From NCBI RefSeq assembly GCF_030530745.1, contig NZ_JAUMUI010000001.1:1-44950 (forward strand): 44,950 nt of DNA, given 5' to 3'. A program made the position numbers and the translations under genes. Shown here one piece after another: positions 3,886 to 41,391 of the stretch (the first letter of the stretch is position 1; every line of letters starts with the position of its first letter). This stretch comes from Neisseria sp. GTDB taxonomy: Bacteria; Pseudomonadota; Gammaproteobacteria; Burkholderiales; Neisseriaceae. The notes beneath the pieces were generated by a model. That model made no database searches. It had not been told where the DNA came from and saw nothing but the letters and a program-made list of their open reading frames with translations.

Positions 3886-4074
3886 TAGGGTCTGTCAACA
3901 ATTAACGCAACGGCGGTATTTTTGGTCAAAAATCCCCATCTGCGGCGTTAGGTAGCGTAGCGGACTTGCGAAGCTAAAATGCTCGCAAGGTATTCAACCT
4001 TGCTGCGCTTTTTGCCTTGCATACGCGGTTTTTGCCTCAAAAAACCGCTGCGCCGGTCACGTCGACAGACCCTA
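3886..4074 (-). mobile_element. TA-flanked MITE-like element, copy A (189 bp)
   Basis: Begins TAGGGTCTGTCAACA and ends TGTCGACAGACCCTA on inspection of the inverted arms (right arm as written: GTCGACAGACCCTA). It shares its core with copies at 32361, 33600 and 41227 but lies in the opposite orientation. The core contains GCGGTTTTTTGAGGCAAAAA and an internal hairpin with stem GCAAGGT/ACCTTGC. It carries about 25 extra bases beside the internal hairpin. The flanking TA and the first G of the element supply the TAG stop of the neighbouring MFS gene. Confidence 0.75.
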
Positions 4075-5687: not shown

Positions 5688-5721
5688 TCACTTTCTTAAA
5701 AAAAACTTCTAAAATCCAAAA

Positions 5722-5750
5722 AGATACTCGGGTCAAGCCCGAGTATGACG
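5722..5750. repeat. dispersed palindromic repeat, copy 3
   Basis: Reads AAGATACTCGGGTCAAGCCC, then GAGTATGACG, inverted relative to copy 2 and 35 bp away, like the paired REP units of a BIME. Confidence 0.75.
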
Positions 5751-21696: not shown

Positions 21697-21720
21697 ACAC
21701 CTTAATCAACCGCTCTATCC

Positions 21721-21747
21721 GTCATACTCGGGCTTGACCCGAGTATC
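21721..21747. repeat. dispersed palindromic repeat, copy 4
   Basis: GTCATACTCGGGCTTGACCC followed by GAGTATC, 24 bp after proQ. It may also act as its terminator stem. Confidence 0.75.
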
Positions 21748-21858
21748 TTTATTTTGTCTTGAAAACAGCAAACAGGCCGCCTGAAAATTTGAACCGCACC
21801 CCAAACAAAACACCCGGGCACAATCCGGGTATTCGGGAAAACGGCATCGGCGCAGCCC

Positions 21859-32086: not shown

Positions 32087-32360
32087 AAATCTAATCCTTT
32101 GTGAATATTTTTCTTGTTTAAACAGCGTACAAAGCCAACTGTTATTTTTCAGACGGCCTCAGGCCGTCTGAATGTAGTGTATTGTAATCGCTGATATGAT
32201 CGGCCGAAAGGGGTTGCAAAACGGCGATACCGCCGCGCAGCAGCCGCAAATGTCTAAGGTCTGCCGACATTCAACGCAACGGCGGTATTTCAGACGGCCT
32301 GAACGGATTTTGCAAAGGTTTCTCCCTATCTTTTGTTCCCGGTCATACCCGGTCTTGTTT
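32087..32360. other. repeat-filled intergenic region upstream of acnD
   Basis: Contains a loopless DUS palindrome (32148-32172), a solo MITE end (32255-32290), a TTTTGCAAAGGTTTC fragment (about 32312) and half of the dispersed palindrome (about 32342-32360), abutting MITE copy B. No gene is visible. Confidence 0.65.
32255..32290. mobile_element. solo end of the TA-flanked MITE-like element
   Basis: TAAGGTCTGCCGACATTCAA, then CGCAACGGCGGTATT, matches the inverted right end of copy B at 32361, but the rest of the element is missing. Confidence 0.65.
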
Positions 32361-32527
32361 TAGGGTCTGCCGACATTTAACCGACGAAGCGGTTTTTTTG
32401 AGGCAAAAACCGCGTATGCAAGGCAAAAAGCGCAGCAAGGTTGGACACCTTGCGGGCATTTTTAACGCCGCAGACGGGGTATTTTGGCCAAAAATACCGC
32501 CGTTGCGTTGAATGTCGACAGGCCCTA
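32361..32527 (+). mobile_element. TA-flanked MITE-like element, copy B (167 bp)
   Basis: Begins TAGGGTCTGCCGACATT and ends AATGTCGACAGGCCCTA; the arms pair with three mismatches, two of which would be G-U in RNA. Internal stem GCAAGGT/ACCTTGC. The TAG stop of the adjacent aldo-keto reductase gene comes from its right border. Confidence 0.8.
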
Positions 32528-33599: not shown

Positions 33600-33764
33600 T
33601 AGGACGTGTCGTCAGAAGGCTTGTGCAGCGGTTTTTTGAGGAAAAATCCGCAGATGCAAGGCAAAAAGCACAGCAAGATTGGACATCTTGCGAGCATTTT
33701 TAACGCCGCAGATGCGGATTTTAACCAAAAATACCGCCGCAACGCTTTCTGACGACACGTCCTA
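33600..33764 (+). mobile_element. TA-flanked MITE-like element, copy C (165 bp)
   Basis: Perfect 17-bp terminal inverted repeats AGGACGTGTCGTCAGAA between flanking TA. The core holds three potential hairpins, including GCAAGAT/ATCTTGC. It ends 5 bp from the gpxA stop and lies about 20 bp upstream of the aldo-keto reductase start. Confidence 0.9.
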
Positions 33765-33769
33765 GTAGA

Positions 33770-34309
33770 TTAAAGCAATGATTTGATTTCGCCTTCTATC
33801 GAAAGCGGGGCAACTGCGGGGGCGAAGCGGTTTACAACCCTGCCGTTGCGGTCAACCAGAAACTTGGTGAAGTTCCATTCGATACCGCCCGCTTCGCGCT
33901 TGCTGCCGAGTGCGGCCAGCTTCAACAAAGCGCCTTTTATGCCGCCCCCGCCGCTGTCGTGCGGTTGCTGCGCTTTCAGGTAGCGGTATAGCGGGTGGGC
34001 ATCGGCGCCGTTCACATCGATTTTGCCGAAAACCTTAAACTGCGTGCCGAATTTGGTTTGGCACACCTGCTCGATTTCGCCGCTGGCCTCGGGCGCCTGA
34101 TTGCGGAACTGGTTGCAGGGGAAATCGAGAATTTCCAAACCCTGCCCGGCATAGCGGGCATAAAGGGTTTGCAGTTCGCTATATTGCGGGGTGAGGCCGC
34201 AGCGTGTGGCGGTGTTGACAATCAGCAGCACTTTGCCGGCATAAGCAGACAATGCCACGTTGTTGCCTTGTGCGTCTTTCATCACGAAATCATAGAGTCG
34301 GGCGGTCAT
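33770..34309 (-). CDS. gpxA: glutathione peroxidase
   Basis: A 179-residue thiol peroxidase of the GPx family, removing peroxides in the cytoplasm. The peroxidatic Cys is C37 in NTATRCGLTPQYSEL. The Gln of FPCNQF (Q67) and the Trp/Asn of EWNFTKFLVD complete the site. Cys, not selenocysteine, is used. AAAGGA lies before the ATG at 34309; upstream frame extension runs through the DUF2288 gene in another frame and is not coding. It follows the DUF2288 gene by 10 bp, so the two form an operon. Confidence 0.92.
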   Translation of the reverse strand: MTARLYDFVMKDAQGNNVALSAYAGKVLLIVNTATRCGLTPQYSELQTLYARYAGQGLEILDFPCNQFRNQAPEASGEIEQVCQTKFGTQFKVFGKIDVNGADAHPLYRYLKAQQPHDSGGGGIKGALLKLAALGSKREAGGIEWNFTKFLVDRNGRVVNRFAPAVAPLSIEGEIKSLL

Positions 34310-34319
34310 GTTTATCCTT

Positions 34320-34619
34320 TCATTCGCCGGTGCAGGGCTGCACCAGCACCCACGGCGCCACCACCACCGCCCACATGGCTTGGTTGGCGGCCAGAAAGCG
34401 GCGCGCCTGCTCTTCGCTAACCACACCGAACCTGCCCTGTTTCATCAGTTCGCCCAATGCGGCGGCATCGTCGTCTGCCATCAGGCGGGCAGTTTGAATC
34501 AGATCCAGATCGGCGCTCACATACACCGCTGCGCCGCGGGCGAAATGCGGTTGCAGCTCGTTCCATGAAATACGGGCGGTTTCAAGGTTGAGTTTGTCGT
34601 TGAGCAGGTTGCCGTTCAT
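34320..34619 (-). CDS. DUF2288 protein
   Basis: A 99-residue cytoplasmic protein. The pattern LNLETARISWNELQPHFARG, VYVSADLDLIQTARLMADDD and WAVVVAPWVLVQ is that of DUF2288, whose function is unknown. AAGGAAA precedes the ATG. It is the first gene of a two-gene unit with gpxA. Confidence 0.85.
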   Translation of the reverse strand: MNGNLLNDKLNLETARISWNELQPHFARGAAVYVSADLDLIQTARLMADDDAAALGELMKQGRFGVVSEEQARRFLAANQAMWAVVVAPWVLVQPCTGE

Positions 34620-34728
34620 GCTTTTCCTTGAGAATGTTGGAAAGGTTGGGGGTTATTGTACGCTGTTTGCAGCCGCCGTTCTGTTTCAGACGGCCTCTTG
34701 CGCTTCGGCACAGGCTTATTGCCCGTGT

Positions 34729-34757
34729 TTTACAAATAGAATGTTATACAGTATCAT
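34729..34757 (+). promoter_or_regulatory. promoter with overlapping Zur-box-like operator (znu locus)
   Basis: TTTACA and TATCAT are separated by 17 bp. ATGTTATACAGTATCAT (34741-34757) agrees with the proteobacterial Zur box ATGTTATAnTATAACAT at 13 of 16 defined positions and covers the spacer and -10. Zinc-loaded Zur binding here would block transcription. Confidence 0.65.
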
Positions 34758-34810
34758 TTGCGCTTTTCAGCCTTGCGCCTAAGGCAAGGCCGTCTGAAAG
34801 ATTGTTAAGC

Positions 34811-34909
34811 ATGAATTCCATTTTACTCGCCGGCCTTGCCCAACGCCTGCTGCTGGCCGCCGCCGCCCTCGCCCTGCTGTGGGGCGCTTATTTCTGGGCG
34901 GCGGCATGA
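34811..34909 (+). CDS. 32-residue membrane peptide at the head of znuC
   Basis: A small frame starting MNSILLAGLAQRLLLAAAAL and ending in WAAA. It is almost entirely hydrophobic and could form one transmembrane helix. Its TGA overlaps the znuC ATG by four bases (ATGA), the usual sign of translational coupling. It lies just after the Zur-controlled promoter. It may be a true small subunit or a leader that couples translation of znuC. No family is recognised. Confidence 0.55.
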   Translation: MNSILLAGLAQRLLLAAAALALLWGAYFWAAA

Positions 34910-35634
34910 GCATTCTGGTTAAAAACCTCACCGTAAGCTACCGCCGCCGGCCGGCAGTCCACCATTTGAACACCGAGTTTGCCGACGGCTGCATGTGCGC
35001 CGTTTTCGGCCCCAACGGGGCGGGCAAATCCACTCTGCTCAAGGCGGTGATGGGCTTGCTCAAAGCCGACACCGGCACCGTGCGCCATGTCGGTTTGCGC
35101 CGCCAAGACATCGCCTACCTGCCGCAGCAGTCGGATATCGACCGCAGCCAGCCCATCAGCGTGTTTGAGCTGGCGGCGATGGGGTTGTGGTATGAAATCA
35201 GTTTTTTCGGACGGGTTAACGCCGAGCAGCGCAAGCGGGTGATGGAAGCATTGGAACGGGTGGAAATGGCCGACTTTGCCGGCCGCCAAATTGCCCATCT
35301 TTCCAACGGCCAGTTCCAGCGCGTTTTGTTTGCGCGCATGTTGGCGCAGAATGCGAAATTTCTGCTGCTCGACGAACCGTTTAACGCGGTGGACGCCAAA
35401 ACCACTTATGCCCTGCTCGATGTTTTGCGGCGCTGCCACGGCAGCGGCCAGTCTGTTGTGGCGGTGCTGCACGATTACGAGCAGGTGCGGGCGTATTTTC
35501 CCGAAACGCTGCTGATCGCCCGCGACAAAATCGCCGAAGGCGCCACCGAGAAAGTGTTAACCGACACCTTTCTGCAACAGGCTAACGCCGCCATGCAGCG
35601 GCACGAAACGCCAGACTGGTGCGAAACGGCCTGA
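34906..35634 (+). CDS. znuC: zinc ABC importer, ATPase
   Basis: A 242-residue ATP-binding subunit. Walker A is GPNGAGKST, the signature is LSNGQFQRV (Asn replaces the usual Gly of LSGGQ), and Walker B is FLLLDEPFNAVD, followed by the switch His in VLHDYEQV. It drives Zn2+ uptake with ZnuB and ZnuA. The ATG at 34906 overlaps the small peptide gene; the frame's earlier ATG would run into that gene. Manganese is an alternative substrate, but the His-rich partner ZnuA and the Zur boxes favour zinc. Confidence 0.9.
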   Translation: MSILVKNLTVSYRRRPAVHHLNTEFADGCMCAVFGPNGAGKSTLLKAVMGLLKADTGTVRHVGLRRQDIAYLPQQSDIDRSQPISVFELAAMGLWYEISFFGRVNAEQRKRVMEALERVEMADFAGRQIAHLSNGQFQRVLFARMLAQNAKFLLLDEPFNAVDAKTTYALLDVLRRCHGSGQSVVAVLHDYEQVRAYFPETLLIARDKIAEGATEKVLTDTFLQQANAAMQRHETPDWCETA

Positions 35635-35657
35635 TTTTGAAGCCTTTGCAAAACCCG

Positions 35658-35696
35658 TTTTCAGACGGCCTCAAACAAATTCAGGCCGTCTGAAAA
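35658..35696. terminator. inverted DUS pair between znuC and znuB
   Basis: TTTTCAGACGGCCTC and its inverted copy around a short loop. It could cause partial termination inside the locus. Confidence 0.45.
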
Positions 35697-35755
35697 CCGC
35701 CCGCCATATCCGATAAACCGCCGCCTGATATTTCAGACGGCCTCTGCTTTCCAAC

Positions 35756-36631
35756 ATGAATCTTTACGAATTAATCATCGGGCCGTTCGCCGAATTCGAC
35801 TTCATGCGCTATGCGCTCGCATCGGTGGTGTGCCTGGCGTTCAGCGCCGCGCCGGTGGGCGTGTTTCTGGTGATGCGCCGCATGAGCCTGATCGGCGACG
35901 CCTTAAGCCACGCCGTACTGCCCGGCGCCGCCGTCGGCTATATGTTTGCCGGATTGAGTATGCCCGCTATGAGCGCGGGCGGTTTTGCGGCGGGTATGCT
36001 GATGGCGCTGCTTGCGGGTTTGGCCAGCCGTTTCACTTCGCTGAAAGAAGATGCCAATTTCGCCGCCTTTTATTTAAGCAGCCTGGCCGTCGGCGTGGTG
36101 CTGGTGAGCAAAAACGGCAGCAGCGTCGATCTGCTGCACCTGCTGTTCGGCTCGGTGCTGGCCGTGGATTTGCCCGCGCTGCAACTGATTGCCGCGGCCG
36201 CCAGCGTTACCATCGTGGCTTTGGCCGTGATTTACCGCCCGCTGGTGCTCGAAAGCATAGACCCGCTGTTTTTAAAATCGGTAAACGGCAAAGGCGGCTT
36301 CTGGCACGTTTTGTTTCTGGTACTGGTGGTAATGAACCTGGTGGCGGGGTTTCAGGCTTTGGGCACGCTGATGTCGGTGGGGCTGATGATGCTGCCCGCC
36401 ATCACTGCGCGCCTGTGGGCGAAAAACATGGGCATGCTTCTGCTGCTGGCAGTATTAACCGCTTTGGTGTGCGGCTTCGGCGGGCTGCTGTTTTCGTATT
36501 ACATCGAAATCCCTTCCGGCCCCGCGATTATCCTGTGGTGCGGTGCGTTTTATCTGGTTTCGGTGCTGTTCGGTTTGGAAGGCGGCATCATCCCGAAATG
36601 GCTGCGCCATAAAAAACACCGCCGGGCTTGA
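35756..36631 (+). CDS. znuB: zinc ABC importer, permease
   Basis: A 291-residue ABC-3 family permease with about eight membrane segments. The coupling region is RRMSLIGDALSHAVLPGAAVGY, and FQALGTLMSVGLMMLPAITARLW is the second conserved stretch. It forms the membrane channel of ZnuABC. No good Shine-Dalgarno precedes the ATG, which lies about 120 bp after znuC beyond an inverted DUS pair. Confidence 0.92.
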   Translation: MNLYELIIGPFAEFDFMRYALASVVCLAFSAAPVGVFLVMRRMSLIGDALSHAVLPGAAVGYMFAGLSMPAMSAGGFAAGMLMALLAGLASRFTSLKEDANFAAFYLSSLAVGVVLVSKNGSSVDLLHLLFGSVLAVDLPALQLIAAAASVTIVALAVIYRPLVLESIDPLFLKSVNGKGGFWHVLFLVLVVMNLVAGFQALGTLMSVGLMMLPAITARLWAKNMGMLLLLAVLTALVCGFGGLLFSYYIEIPSGPAIILWCGAFYLVSVLFGLEGGIIPKWLRHKKHRRA

Positions 36632-36695
36632 TGGCCAAATAGTTTTCAGACGGCCTCAACCTGCTGTTTTCAAAATTCTTTAACCACCGCTTTAT

Positions 36696-36712
36696 CTGTT
36701 ACGTTATATCAA
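36696..36712 (+). promoter_or_regulatory. second Zur-box-like site, upstream of znuA
   Basis: CTGTTACGTTATATCAA agrees with the Zur box at 11 of 16 defined positions and ends 13 bp before the znuA ATG. It suggests znuA has its own zinc-controlled promoter. Confidence 0.45.
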
Positions 36713-36725
36713 AAGGAATTTTAAG

Positions 36726-37634
36726 ATGAAACATTGGAAAACCGGCCTGATTGCCGCACTTGTATCCGGCAGCCTCTACGCCACCCCCATGAACGTGGTT
36801 GCCAGCTTCAGTATTTTGGGCGACGTTGCCAAACAAGTAGGCGGCGAGCGCGTGGCCGTGCAGAATTTGGTCGGACCCGACCAAGATTCGCACGCCTACC
36901 ACATCACCAGCGGCGACATCAAAAAAATCCGCAGCGCCAAACTGGTGCTGATGAACGGCTTGGGGCTTGAAGCCGGCGACGTACAACGCGCCGTGAAGCA
37001 AAGCAAAGTGCCCTACGCCGAAGCAGCGGCAGGCATCTCCGCCCTCAAAGCCCCCGAAGGCGGCCATGCTCACGATCACGGCCACAGTCATGACCACGGC
37101 CACAATCACGGCAGATACGACCCCCACGTTTGGACCGACCCCATGCTGATGCAAACCTACGCCCAAAACGTTGCCAACGCCCTGATCAAAGCCGATCCGC
37201 AAGGCGCGGCCTATTACCGCCAGCGCCTTACCGCCTATCAGGGCGAGCTGAAAAAACTGCATGCCGACACGCAAAAATCGTTTGCCGCCATCCCGCAGAA
37301 CCAACGCAAAGTGCTCACCGGCCACGACGCTTTCGCCTATATGGGCAAACGCTACAACATCCGCTTTATCGCCCCGCAAGGCGTGAACACCTCTGCCGAG
37401 CCGTCGGCCAAACAGGTGGCGGCCATCATCCGCCAGATCAAACGCGAAGGTATCAAAGCCGTGTTTGCCGAAAACATCAAAGACACCCGCATGGTCGAGC
37501 GCATCGCCAAAGAAACCGGCGTGAAGCCCAGCGGCAAGCTCTACTCCGACGCGCTGAGCAAAAACGCCCCTGCCGACAGCTATGTGAATATGTACCGCTA
37601 CAACGTGCGCGCATTGAGCGATGCCATGAAATAA
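36726..37634 (+). CDS. znuA: zinc-binding periplasmic protein
   Basis: A 302-residue cluster A-I solute-binding protein with a Sec signal peptide (residues 1 to about 20). The metal ligands expected for ZnuA are visible: DSHAYH, DPHVWTDP, LTGHDAFAYMG and VFAENIKDTRM. A His/Asp-rich loop (GHAHDHGHSHDHGHNHG, residues about 115-133) marks a zinc rather than manganese protein. AAAGGAA precedes the ATG. It completes ZnuABC. Confidence 0.94.
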   Translation: MKHWKTGLIAALVSGSLYATPMNVVASFSILGDVAKQVGGERVAVQNLVGPDQDSHAYHITSGDIKKIRSAKLVLMNGLGLEAGDVQRAVKQSKVPYAEAAAGISALKAPEGGHAHDHGHSHDHGHNHGRYDPHVWTDPMLMQTYAQNVANALIKADPQGAAYYRQRLTAYQGELKKLHADTQKSFAAIPQNQRKVLTGHDAFAYMGKRYNIRFIAPQGVNTSAEPSAKQVAAIIRQIKREGIKAVFAENIKDTRMVERIAKETGVKPSGKLYSDALSKNAPADSYVNMYRYNVRALSDAMK

Positions 37635-37683
37635 ACCTTGTTTGGCAGGCAACCGGTCAGGCCGTCTGAAACGCTTAAATACC

Positions 37684-37711
37684 GTCATGCTCGGGCTTGA
37701 CCCGAGCATCT
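37684..37711. repeat. dispersed palindromic repeat, copy 6
   Basis: Reads GTCATGCTCGGGCTTGACCC, then GAGCATCT. Confidence 0.75.
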
Positions 37712-37737
37712 TTTTGTTTCGGAAGAAATAACAGATA

Positions 37738-37761
37738 ACCGGGGCAAGCCCGAGTATGACG
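37738..37761. repeat. dispersed palindromic repeat, copy 7 (partial)
   Basis: GGGGCAAGCCCGAGTATGAC lies inverted relative to copy 6, making a second BIME-like pair. Confidence 0.6.
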
Positions 37762-37799
37762 TAAGGGATATAAAACGGAGGCCGGTCAAAAACTCAATC

Positions 37800-37840
37800 A
37801 GGCCGTCTGAAAACAAACAGAATTTGTTTTCAGACGGCCT
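37800..37840. terminator. inverted DUS pair between convergent znuA and mpl
   Basis: Complete inverted DUS copies whose stem is extended by AAAACAAA/TTTGTTTT-type flanks. It serves both strands. Confidence 0.75.
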
Positions 37841-37885
37841 GATTAGTATGTTATCAATACATTCCGATCCAACAACCGGCCGGGC

Positions 37886-39268
37886 TTAACGCCCTGCCAG
37901 CAGAGCCAGCAGCTTATCGTGGATGCCGCCGAAGCCGCCGTTGCTCATCACCAGAATATGGTCGCCCGGCCGGGCTTCCGCCGCCACTGCCGCCGTAAAG
38001 GCATCGAAATCTTTGCCCGTGTGCAGCTTGCCGCCCAGCGGGGCAAGCGCGTCGGCCACGTCCCAATCGACGCCGCCTGCGTAGCAGAATACCTTATCGG
38101 CTTCCTTCAGGCTTGCGGGCAGCGCGGCTTTCATGGTGCCGAGCTTCATGGTATTGGAACGCGGCTCCAACACGGCCAAAATGCGCGCCTCGCCCACTTT
38201 CTGACGCAAGCCCGCCACGGTGGTGGCGATGGCGGTGGGATGGTGGGCGAAATCGTCGTAAACGGTGATGCCGTCGGCCTCACCTTTGATTTCCATGCGC
38301 CGTTTCACGTTTTTAAAGGCGCTCAGGGCTTCGCAGGCCGTCTGAACGTCCACACCGGCATGGCGGGCGGCGGCAATCACGGCCAGCGCGTTCATGCGGT
38401 TGTGTCCGCCCATCAGGCTCCAAGCCACCCGCCCTGCCGGTTTACCGTGCAGCAAAACATCGAACGAACCGTCGGCCGCCACGCCGCCCGTCTGCCAGCC
38501 CGATGCCGTGCCAAAGGTTTCAACGGGGGTCCAGCAGCCTTTGTCTAAAGTGTCTTGCAGGTTTTGCTCGGTGCCGTTGGCAACAATCAGGCCGTCTGAA
38601 GGAATGGTGCGTACAAGGTGGTGGAATTGGGTTTGGATGGCGGCCAAGTCGGCGAAAATATCGGCGTGGTCGAATTCGAGGTTGTTCAGAATCGCAGTGC
38701 GCGGGCGGTAATGTACGAATTTGGATCGTTTGTCGAAAAACGCGGTATCGTATTCGTCGGCTTCGATAACGAAAAAAGGCGACTGCGAATGCGGGTCTTG
38801 GCGCGGCGCCTGCGGCAGGCGGGCGGACACGCTGAAATTCTGCGGCACGCCGCCGATAAGGAAGCCCGGCGCCAAACCGGCGTATTCAAGCACCCATGCC
38901 AGCATCGAAGCGGTGGTGGTTTTACCGTGCGTGCCGGCCACACCCAGCACCCAACGCCCCTGCAACACGTTTTCGGCCAGCCATTGCGGGCCGGAAACAT
39001 ACGGCAGCCCGCGGTTCATCACTGCTTCCACCACTTCCATGCCGCGTTTGGCCACATTGCCGATCACATAAACGTCGGCGGGGAAACTATCCAGCTGCGC
39101 GGCGTCGAAACCTTCGTGCACGCCTATGCCCAAGGCCTCGAGCTGGGTGCTCATCGGCGGATACATTTTGGCGTCGCAGCCGGTTACTTTAAAGCCCGCT
39201 TCTTTGGCTATCGCCGCCACGCCGCCCATAAAGGTGCCGCCGATGCCGATAATGTGGATGTGTTTCAT
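37886..39268 (-). CDS. mpl: UDP-MurNAc:L-Ala-gamma-D-Glu-meso-DAP ligase
   Basis: A 460-residue Mur-ligase-family enzyme that reattaches the recycled tripeptide to UDP-MurNAc in peptidoglycan recycling. The N-terminal domain begins MKHIHIIGIGGTFMGGVAAI. The ATP site is LGVAGTHGKTTTASML, and IEADEYDTAFFDKRSKF, LNNLEFDHADIF and YDDFAHHPTAI are typical of Mpl. I chose the ATG at 39268 because the 65-codon upstream frame is not family sequence. No strong Shine-Dalgarno was seen. It is divergent from the NSS transporter gene. A DUS encodes PSDGLI. Confidence 0.93.
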   Translation of the reverse strand: MKHIHIIGIGGTFMGGVAAIAKEAGFKVTGCDAKMYPPMSTQLEALGIGVHEGFDAAQLDSFPADVYVIGNVAKRGMEVVEAVMNRGLPYVSGPQWLAENVLQGRWVLGVAGTHGKTTTASMLAWVLEYAGLAPGFLIGGVPQNFSVSARLPQAPRQDPHSQSPFFVIEADEYDTAFFDKRSKFVHYRPRTAILNNLEFDHADIFADLAAIQTQFHHLVRTIPSDGLIVANGTEQNLQDTLDKGCWTPVETFGTASGWQTGGVAADGSFDVLLHGKPAGRVAWSLMGGHNRMNALAVIAAARHAGVDVQTACEALSAFKNVKRRMEIKGEADGITVYDDFAHHPTAIATTVAGLRQKVGEARILAVLEPRSNTMKLGTMKAALPASLKEADKVFCYAGGVDWDVADALAPLGGKLHTGKDFDAFTAAVAAEARPGDHILVMSNGGFGGIHDKLLALLAGR

Positions 39269-39517
39269 AGCTGGTTTTCTGTGCGCAAAAAATGTGATTA
39301 TATAGCGAATCGGCGCCACATTCGGCCTGCTCTGCCGATTTTCCTCCCCGCCCCGCCGCCTCAAGGGCGGAAACGCAGGCCGCACCCTTAATTTTTTCTC
39401 GCACAACTTTACATAAATCAGTATGATAGCCCCCTTACCGGCAGAAAACCGCCTGCTGCACACACTTCAGGCCTGCCGGCAGATAAAACCATATTTAAAT
39501 TTTGAAGAGGTATCACC

Positions 39518-41065
39518 GTGTCTGATTCTAACCAATCCAAGCGCGAAACTTTCTCGAGCCGCAGGGCATTTATGTTTGCCGCCGTCGGCTCGGCGGTAGG
39601 TTTGGGCAATATCTGGCGCTTTCCTTATATTGCTTACAGCAACGGCGGCGGGGCTTTTATCTTGCCCTATCTGGTAGCCCTGCTCACGGCAGGTATCCCG
39701 CTGCTGTTTTTAGACTATGCATTAGGGCACCGCTACCGCGGCTCCGCCCCGCTGGCGTTCCGCCGCCTCAACCGCGCCTTCGAACCGTTCGGCTGGTGGA
39801 ACGTGCTTGCCAACGTAATTATCTGTATTTATTACGCCGTAATCATCGGCTGGGCTGCCAGTTACACCTACTATTCGCTGGCAGGCGCATGGGGCGCCGA
39901 CCCGCAGGCTTTTTTCTTTAAAGACTATCTGAATATGGCCGACGGCGTTTCTATGGGTTTCGATTTTGTGGCCAAAGTGCTCGGCCCCTTGATCGGCGTA
40001 TGGATTTTCACCCTGCTGATTCTGGCCTTGGGCGTGCAGAAAGGCGTAGCGCGTGCTTCAGGCTTCTTTATGCCGCTCTTGGTGGTGATGTTCCTGATTA
40101 TGGTTGCCGTATCGCTCACCCTGCCGGGCGCTGCCAAAGGCTTGGATGCGCTGTTTACACCCGATTGGTCGAAACTTTCCAATCCAAGCGTATGGGTTGC
40201 CGCCTACGGCCAGATTTTCTTTTCGCTGTCTATCTGCTTCGGCATCATGGTAACCTATTCTTCTTACCTGAAGCCCAAATCCGACCTCACCGGCACGGGC
40301 TTGGTGGTAGGCTTTGCCAACAGCAGCTTCGAAGTGCTGGCCGGTATCGGCGTGTTTGCCGCGCTGGGCTTTATGGCTGCGGCAGCGGGCAAAGAAGTGG
40401 GCGACGTGGCCTCTTCGGGCATCGGCCTGGCATTTATCGCCTTCCCCACCATCATCAACCAAGCCCCGTTCGGCTCGTTAATCGGCGTGCTGTTTTTCGG
40501 CTCGCTGGTTTTTGCCGGCATCACTTCGATGATTTCGATTGTGGAAGTAATCATTGCCGCCGTTCAGGATAAACTGCGTTTGGGGCGCATTGCCGCCACA
40601 TTTGCCGTATGCCTGCCGATGGGCATTGTGTCGGCGCTGCTGTTCGGCACCACCACCGGCCTGCCGGTGTTGGACGTGATGGACAAATTCGTCAACACCT
40701 ACGGCATCGTCGCCGCCGGTTTCCTGTATGTTTTGGTATTGGCTGCCGCCAAAAAACTGCCGGTGCTGCGCCGGCACATCAATTCGGTTTCATCATTCAA
40801 AGTCGGCACGTTATGGTATGTTTTCATATGTATCACCATCGCCATGCTCGGCTATATGCTGTTTAACGACACCAAAACCCTGCTGGCCGAAAACTACGAA
40901 GGCTATCCCGACTGGTTCTTAAACACCTTCGGCTGGGGCATGTCGCTGGGCTTGGTTATACTGGCGTTACTGCTGTCGCTGCTGCCGTGGCGCATGGAAA
41001 ACAAATTCAACCCCGACGAGGTTCATAAACCCGACGATACCCGCAACCAAGGAGAACAACCGTGA
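39518..41065 (+). CDS. sodium:amino acid symporter (NSS/SNF), MetP-like
   Basis: A 515-residue neurotransmitter:sodium symporter-family transporter with 12 membrane segments. The sodium and substrate site in TM1 is [20 protein letters not shown], and TM1b continues into [12 protein letters not shown]. It starts with a GTG preceded by GAGGT. The next gene is a tiny MetS-type subunit overlapping by four bases, which points to the MetPS class (methionine and alanine uptake in Corynebacterium). The substrate in Neisseria is an inference. Confidence 0.88.
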
Positions 41066-41154
41066 GCACTACCTCCATCATCATGCTCGTGATAACGCTG
41101 GTTATCATTTGGGGCGGATTTATTATTTCGCTGATGCGTCTGCCGAAAGAATAA
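41062..41154 (+). CDS. MetS-type small subunit of the NSS transporter
   Basis: A 30-residue peptide starting [19 protein letters not shown] after the GTG and ending LMRLPKE. It has one transmembrane helix and a short charged tail, as in MetS small subunits. Its GTG overlaps the TGA of the transporter gene (GTGA), and GGAGAA lies 7 bases before it. It is too short for routine gene finding. Confidence 0.8.
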
Positions 41155-41185
41155 ACCCGACCGCCAAGCAGCAAATAAAACGGAG

Positions 41186-41220
41186 AGGCCGTCTGAAAAA
41201 CATTTTTCAGACGGCCTTTT
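41186..41220 (+). terminator. inverted DUS pair with T run
   Basis: AGGCCGTCTGAAAAA and TTTTTCAGACGGCCT with a CA loop, followed by TTTT, 31 bp after the MetS-type gene. Confidence 0.85.
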
Positions 41221-41226
41221 CGTTTC

Positions 41227-41391
41227 TAGGGAGTGTAGTCAGAATGCTTGTGAAGCGGTTTTTTGAGGAAAAATCCGCAGATGCCAGGCAAAAAGCGCAG
41301 CAAGATTGGACATCTTGCGAGCATTTTTAACGCCGCAGATGCGGATTTTGACCAAAAATACCGCTGCAACGCTTTCTGACTACACTCCCTA
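41227..41391 (+). mobile_element. TA-flanked MITE-like element, copy D (165 bp)
   Basis: Perfect 17-bp terminal inverted repeats AGGGAGTGTAGTCAGAA between flanking TA. The core is nearly identical to copy C at 33600. It lies just past the terminator of the NSS unit. Confidence 0.9.

Follow-up and report, generated by a model that had tools for sequence, protein, structure and literature searches.

Miniature inverted-repeat transposable elements (MITEs) are typically identified by their ends, which are conserved, whereas the middle varies. The repeat families listed for Neisseria in the available part of PMC2267715 are ATR, Nem-2 to Nem-4, dRS3, NEMIS and Rep2, and Correia elements, which have symmetric or asymmetric ends, are mobilised by a mechanism described as not determined in the accessible portion of PMC2649163. 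Among insertion sequences (ISs), IS427-group members mostly make 2-bp duplications, and two open reading frames (ORFs) are described for members of the group (available sections of PMC3281130), while the target motif of E. coli IS5 is YTAR (PMC10359306, seen in part). Here we describe a TA-flanked, palindromic repeat of which four copies lie in the first 44,950 nucleotides of contig NZ_JAUMUI010000001.1 from Neisseria sp. (assembly GCF_030530745.1), a stretch that we call the window. The window's genome, G000, comprises 2.28 Mb in 53 contigs, and the relatives with which we compared it carry labels of the same kind, such as G019.

We propose, with a probability of about 0.83, that these repeats are a non-autonomous MITE family, copied in trans by the IS5-family (IS427-like) transposases of ISs that carry the same terminal repeats, and inserted at the TA of a YTAR target. 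The four copies were picked out by a sequence-only reading of the window, and all are present with TA at both boundaries. Copies C (33600..33764) and D (41227..41391), both on the forward strand, are type II elements of 165 bp including the flanking TA. Their ends pair perfectly, 18/18 including TA, and the two copies differ from each other at three end positions, each matched in the opposite arm; the end sequence is TAGGACGTGTCGTCAGAA in C, where it occupies 33600..33617 on the forward and 33747..33764 on the reverse strand, and TAGGGAGTGTAGTCAGAA in D. The type I copies are B (32361..32527, forward strand, 167 bp) and A (3886..4074, reverse strand, 189 bp), whose ends pair at 15/18 and 13/18 positions, so the paired ends reported earlier hold fully in C and D and imperfectly in A and B. 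The reported paired change of the internal hairpin is also present, GCAAGAT/ATCTTGC in C and D versus GCAAGGT/ACCTTGC in A and B. The central hairpin region, the part conserved across the family, spans 33654..33715 in C and 41281..41342 in D, and a partial copy with one end arm only (32255..32290, reverse strand; entry I9 of the inverted-repeat listing) adjoins B. Copy A has an ortholog in G019 and copy D one at the same locus in N. dentiae (G020), with 94% identity over 1.1 kb.

The window's genome contains at least 50 core-bearing copies: our core-arm pattern gave 50 matches, all of which were extracted, and no control matches, and the end patterns gave 99 type I and 33 type II sites, again with no control matches. 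Of 49 core copies with full flanks, a script typed 34 as type I at both ends, 12 as type II at both ends and 3 as mixed; by eye, two of the mixed copies (L013 and L016) look like genuine hybrids and the third (L014) like a copy with a decayed end. The repeats are short (<500 bp), non-coding and multi-copy, they carry terminal inverted repeats, and lengths of 163-167 and 189-191 bp predominate in a set of 193 bounded copies (26 genomes), despite differing ends. Some copies of either end type, copy A among them, contain a ~25-bp insert, AGCTTCGCAAGTCCGCTACGCTACCT, always at one site in the 3' half of the hairpin. Shorter versions exist as well, with the two ends close together, and account for some of the end-pattern sites in G000: five of ~80 bp in G000 (C40:58846-58925, C16:13238-13317, C7:158291-158370, C31:12661-12740 and C47:55098-55176) and one of ~40 bp in G043 (L109).

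Of 84 Neisseriaceae genomes searched by BLAST with copy B, 36 gave a match, and these represent 7 of 12 genera; at most 10 candidates were scored per genome, so that copy counts from this search are lower bounds. A pattern search matched 24 of the 84 genomes, and its controls matched none; pattern counts reached 190 in G047, 53 in G000, 48 in G037, 39 in G020, 35 in G019, 31 in G012 and 23 in G043, and were lower elsewhere. Carriers include N. dentiae, the Neisseria metagenome-assembled genome (MAG) S28M_Sa_33 (G037), N. elongata (G021), N. sicca (G032), N. wadsworthii (G049) and an Eikenella MAG (G004). We read the repeats as short, mobile DNA hairpins that form one family in Neisseria and its relatives. 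A tree of the cores of 161 of the 193 bounded copies (nine end classes), although poorly resolved, requires at least 14 changes of end class; given so few changes, end class mostly follows the core, and frequent swapping of ends on one core is unsupported.

The insertion context agrees with a TA target. TA is found at both ends of 140 of the 193 bounded copies, placed by a procedure that gave a small bonus to TA and AGGG, and in these 140 the base before TA is C or T in 131 and the base after it A or G in 128, which is the YTAR context. At G000:C40:24229-24556, two tandem copies share one TA where N. dentiae has a single copy. At two other sites (L002/L167 and L014/L185) a relative carries an inverted or other-type element at the same insertion site, a pattern of replacement, inversion or re-insertion.

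Several related genomes carry IS5-family elements of ~810-880 bp that could supply the transposase. The ends of the G043 element, TAGGGCTTCCTGACAATT, match its resident MITE at 18/18 positions, and those of the G055 element, TAGGGTCTGTTCACAATT, at 17/18; G019 and G037 share the ends TAGGGTCTGTCGACATTC, and six G000 copies have these same 18 bases at their right end. In G043, G055 and G019 the transposases match NF033580 (IS5 family transposase) and the Pfam domains DUF4096 and DDE_Tnp_1; the transposase is a single ORF in G043 and in G055 and is split into two ORFs in G019, where the second ORF alone falls below the NF033580 cut-off. Two sets of MITE-bearing genomes were searched for DUF4096, the N-terminal part of IS5-family transposases, with matches in 9 of 11 genomes of the first set and 7 of 20 of the second (16 of 31 together), and at 18 of the 30 DUF4096 loci of the second set we examined the IS ends. 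Across nine comparable genomes, the MITE ends fit the resident IS5-family element best or equally best in six (18/18 in G043, 17 in G055, 16 in G019, G037 and G047, and 15 in G002). The sum of own-genome end matches was 117, versus a permuted mean of 99.4 (p 0.0014), in a comparison of nine genomes whose end sets were hand-picked and in which G019 and G037 share one IS type. The TA-target MITE of the sequence-only reading is supported by these partners, all of them in related genomes and none in the window's own.

In addition to the two features of the comparison just named, a number of observations count against the proposal that IS5-family transposases move these repeats. In three of the nine genomes (G012, G052 and G015) the ends of the MITE and of the resident IS do not correspond, in G067 the MITE and IS ends differ by eye, and 15 of the 31 MITE-bearing genomes searched lack a DUF4096 match. 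In G000 we found no intact matching IS5-family element; its only DUF4096 locus, C49:37641, adjoins a DDE domain (DDE_Tnp_1) with an internal stop, and we saw no matching ends around this DDE_Tnp_1 locus. We found no partner for the type II ends, and we obtained no clean empty site with a single TA: a G054 site lacks the element but is diverged, and BLAST with flanks returned only tandem copies or flanks lying within another copy. Because six right ends in G000 are identical to the G019 and G037 IS ends, it is likely that G000 had a partner that is now lost or that is unassembled.

Other candidates for such a partner were rejected. Nine G000 contig ends stop inside a copy, but these hold ~55 bp or slightly more of the MITE, as expected for unresolved MITE copies and not for a concealed IS. 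A 1151-bp end pair (C7:94917-96067) is not an IS; it comprises a MITE relic, a decayed end and a long ORF whose product, judged by eye, resembles a membrane protein. For IS630-family (PF13358) elements we inspected the results for 20 retrieved loci and saw no matching pair of ends there.

Copy C is predicted to fold, whichever strand is taken, as one whole-length hairpin with internal loops (-91.6 kcal/mol for one strand and -90.9 for the other, both with z about -12), and not as the outer stem closing three hairpins that had been suggested; for the first of these folds the shuffled mean was -41.3 kcal/mol and 0/200 shuffles were as low. We grouped 162 of the 193 bounded copies into ten end classes, one of them a single copy and another two copies, and each of the ten consensuses is predicted to form a hairpin over its entire length, at -79 to -99 kcal/mol. 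In the 18 bp nearest either end the identity between class consensuses is 0.55, and in the inner arms 0.37-0.63, versus 0.84-0.87 in the central ~54 bp. Exchanging 3' arms among nine classes weakened the fold from a native mean of -89.8 to -54.3 kcal/mol, or to -73.0 kcal/mol when only the inner arm was exchanged and the ends were kept.

We assessed covariation along the stem, over 56 stem pairs, in an alignment of 39 copies that represent the ten classes; 42 had been chosen, of which L261, L103 and L101 were left out. In this alignment 94.9% of cells were paired versus 79.4% after shuffling, 33 of the 56 pairs had two-sided changes, and the covariation score was 0.439 versus 0.167 shuffled and at most 0.09 slid (0/500 for all five measures), although these controls do not model the tree, and the consensus structure was predicted from the same alignment and is therefore favoured over its slid versions. 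For the stem inside the ends alone the score was 0.321 versus 0.141 shuffled; three of the five measures beat shuffling, while those that count pairs and types did not (41/500 and 193/500). The pairing of this inner stem between lineages is not explained by recognition of the ends.

In G000, perfect 18/18 arms are found in 9 of the 38 copies examined, three among the 28 of type I and six among the 10 of type II, and type I end position 6 is mismatched in 16 of 28. Left and right ends nevertheless agree above the level obtained by shuffling them among copies, at 15.93 versus 15.19 of 18 positions for type I (1/2000 shuffles as high) and 17.3 versus 16.13 for type II (0/2000), in shuffles that ignore kinship among copies; the arms are thus linked, with unpaired differences still common. 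Unpaired arm differences throughout the genome, which the sequence-only reading had named as evidence against itself, are therefore often seen in G000 alongside this statistical link. Six orthologous copies, three shared with N. dentiae and three with G019, differ at 22 stem pairs, of which 21 changed on one side and one on both (six of nine ortholog pairs were used, as L002 and L014 hold another element and L031 is not homologous). Since 21 of 22 changes are one-sided, resident copies decay one arm at a time, and matched arms presumably appear between lineages, in those that kept moving. The claim that pairing and not sequence is kept consequently stands between lineages, including in the stem inside the terminal repeats, and fails copy by copy; as a rule without exceptions, it is ruled out by the unpaired differences in G000 and the one-sided changes at orthologs.

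Three further explanations of the paired arms bear on this pattern. Template switching or conversion between the arms could keep them alike as an effect of repair or replication, with no selection for the fold. The two-sided changes do run along the stem and beyond the ends, at two loci (L002/L167 and L014/L185, as noted above) the element that a relative has at that site is inverted or of another kind, and template switching is reported to be able to create and maintain stems (PMC8794818, in the part available), but the one-sided changes at orthologous copies count against it, and an excess of G.U over A.C pairs, described below, is not what arm copying should produce. We regard this explanation as unlikely; frequent switching, which the sequence-only reading had also raised, is unsupported on the time scale of the orthologous copies, and only rare events are compatible with them. 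Still less probable is that selection acts on the terminal repeats only and that inner pairing is merely inherited from a palindromic ancestor. The one-armed decay of single copies would fit such an origin, yet outside the centre the classes are only 0.37-0.63 identical while each consensus is largely paired, and the inner-arm exchange costs ~17 kcal/mol on average; we disfavour this account, which would hold only if the classes had arisen far more recently than their divergence implies.

The remaining explanation, compatible with a MITE moved by IS5-family transposases, is that selection acts on the fold itself, because it serves the spread of the element or has a role in the host. The element would then carry a structured RNA, or a strand-specific hairpin of single-stranded DNA, whose apical domain is conserved and whose stem covaries. 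We consider this possible, though doubtful. In its favor are the covariation and arm-exchange results above and a bias between the strands: with arms aligned by a strand-symmetric score, the class consensuses have 27 G.U versus 7 A.C cells, or 17 versus 5 distinct class sites (p 0.017), although sites in related copies are not fully independent. A first G.U excess, taken from RNA folds of 138 of 172 copies, had been discarded and redone in this way because the fold itself favors G.U. Fourteen further copies, 12 of them unused before (L118 is also in the class consensuses and L404 is the same place as L124) and with automatic bounds that are imprecise in some, such as L397, gave 57 G.U versus 27 A.C (p 0.0014), with more G.U in 10 of the 14 and more A.C in 4. 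The arms alone fold lower on the core's + strand in 10/10 classes, and the + strand fold is the lower one in 42 of 49 copies in G000 but in only 10 of the 14 further copies, whereas the core segment, taken by itself, favors the - strand in 9/10 classes.

Other results argue against a strand-specific role. New one-sided variants are nearly symmetric (G.U versus A.C 77 to 62, and 26 to 18 summed over G000 copies), and the contrast between fixed and new variants was non-significant in the one test made (p 0.18); the covariation controls lack a tree, and two of the five inner-stem measures fell within shuffling. By a simple, purpose-written gene finder, copies show no orientation bias towards neighboring genes (52 sense, 45 antisense, 20 convergent and 19 divergent, with a further 4 inside an ORF and 13 without a neighbor), and a role through host mRNAs was rejected on this ground. 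Rfam returned only one tRNA in the window at the gathering threshold and no match for copy C at E up to 1. The G.U excess is a modest sign of strand-specific pairing, and the structured RNA or folded substrate of the sequence-only reading draws on it while meeting the opposite preference of the core, the absence of orientation bias and the lack of an Rfam match. The element may thus have a strand-specific role of its own. More tentatively still, the family may be a mobile RNA structure, or a strand-specific hairpin of single-stranded DNA, in which a covarying stem needed for its own spread bears a conserved apical ~54-nt domain, with the outermost ~18 bp adjusted lineage by lineage to whichever IS5 transposase is resident.

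Returning to the proposal of a MITE moved in trans, the events could run as follows. The element would insert at a TA within YTAR, leaving the flanking TA as a target duplication, and the IS5-family transposase of a resident IS would move it in trans. Both ends would stay alike because one transposase must recognise both, and they would drift to follow whichever IS5 transposase is present. For the stem inside the terminal repeats, which is also paired between lineages, either the hairpin would be selected, as RNA or single-stranded DNA, or the arms would occasionally be homogenised. Overall, the earlier observation on these repeats is confirmed in part, and its interpretation is supported in part. 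In contrast to the usual MITE picture, the ends here are among the least conserved parts and fit the local transposase in several genomes, and the middle and the full-length fold persist across genera. Such a natural series of parasite ends beside different transposases offers a setting in which to ask whether the hairpin of a MITE is itself selected.

Two side observations concern other repeats. IS630-family elements of ~910-920 bp occur in G000, G019 and G037 with ends TATAGTGAATTAAAATAAGAA / TATAGTCAATTAAAATAAGAA (G000:C7:183782-184183, L313; also L311, L312, L316, L321 and L325), and at 6 of 11 IS630 loci examined the first 13 bases of these ends differ from the published Correia repeat by only 1-2 mismatches. 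Close by, two IS630-type ends form a ~117-bp pair (L311:2409-2525), one end of which has 0 mismatches to the Correia repeat, and from these matches IS630-family elements are a possible transposase source for Correia elements. A second dispersed palindromic repeat, ...ACTCGGGCTTGACCCGAGTATC..., lies in the window at 2180-2217, 5712-5750, 21719-21755 and 37668-37761.

Among described elements, REPINs with RAYT transposases are palindromic, dispersed and non-autonomous, like the elements here, but RAYT elements are not expected to leave TA on both sides. No description of the present element was recognised in the literature that we searched, including by sequence strings, with subscription papers and ISfinder outside its scope; apart from the Correia ends, the families of PMC2267715 and the palindromic repeats of PMC3733652, both available in part, were not compared with it sequence by sequence. 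Correia elements (CREE/NEMIS) are likewise short, non-coding, TA-flanked (PMC1431543, seen in part), hairpin-forming and dispersed in Neisseria. Their ends, TATAG[CT]GGATTAA (PMC2911385, seen in part), are found in none of the ten classes, whose consensuses begin TAGGG, CAGGG, AAGGG or AGAACC, and the ends here instead match IS5-family elements. QMITE2 of Coxiella shares with our elements a full-length fold (available portion of PMC10969869), a lack of coding capacity and a multi-copy state; a putative difference from such hairpin MITEs is that the family here has its ends among the least and its centre as the most conserved part across several genera. ISs of the IS427 group of the IS5 family, and the MITEs that descend from them, resemble the present elements in terminal repeats, in TA on both sides within YTAR and in the IS5-family transposases of several of the same genomes. 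The MITE described here differs from these in that it shares only the terminal ~15-20 bp with the IS and combines one conserved centre with many end sequences.

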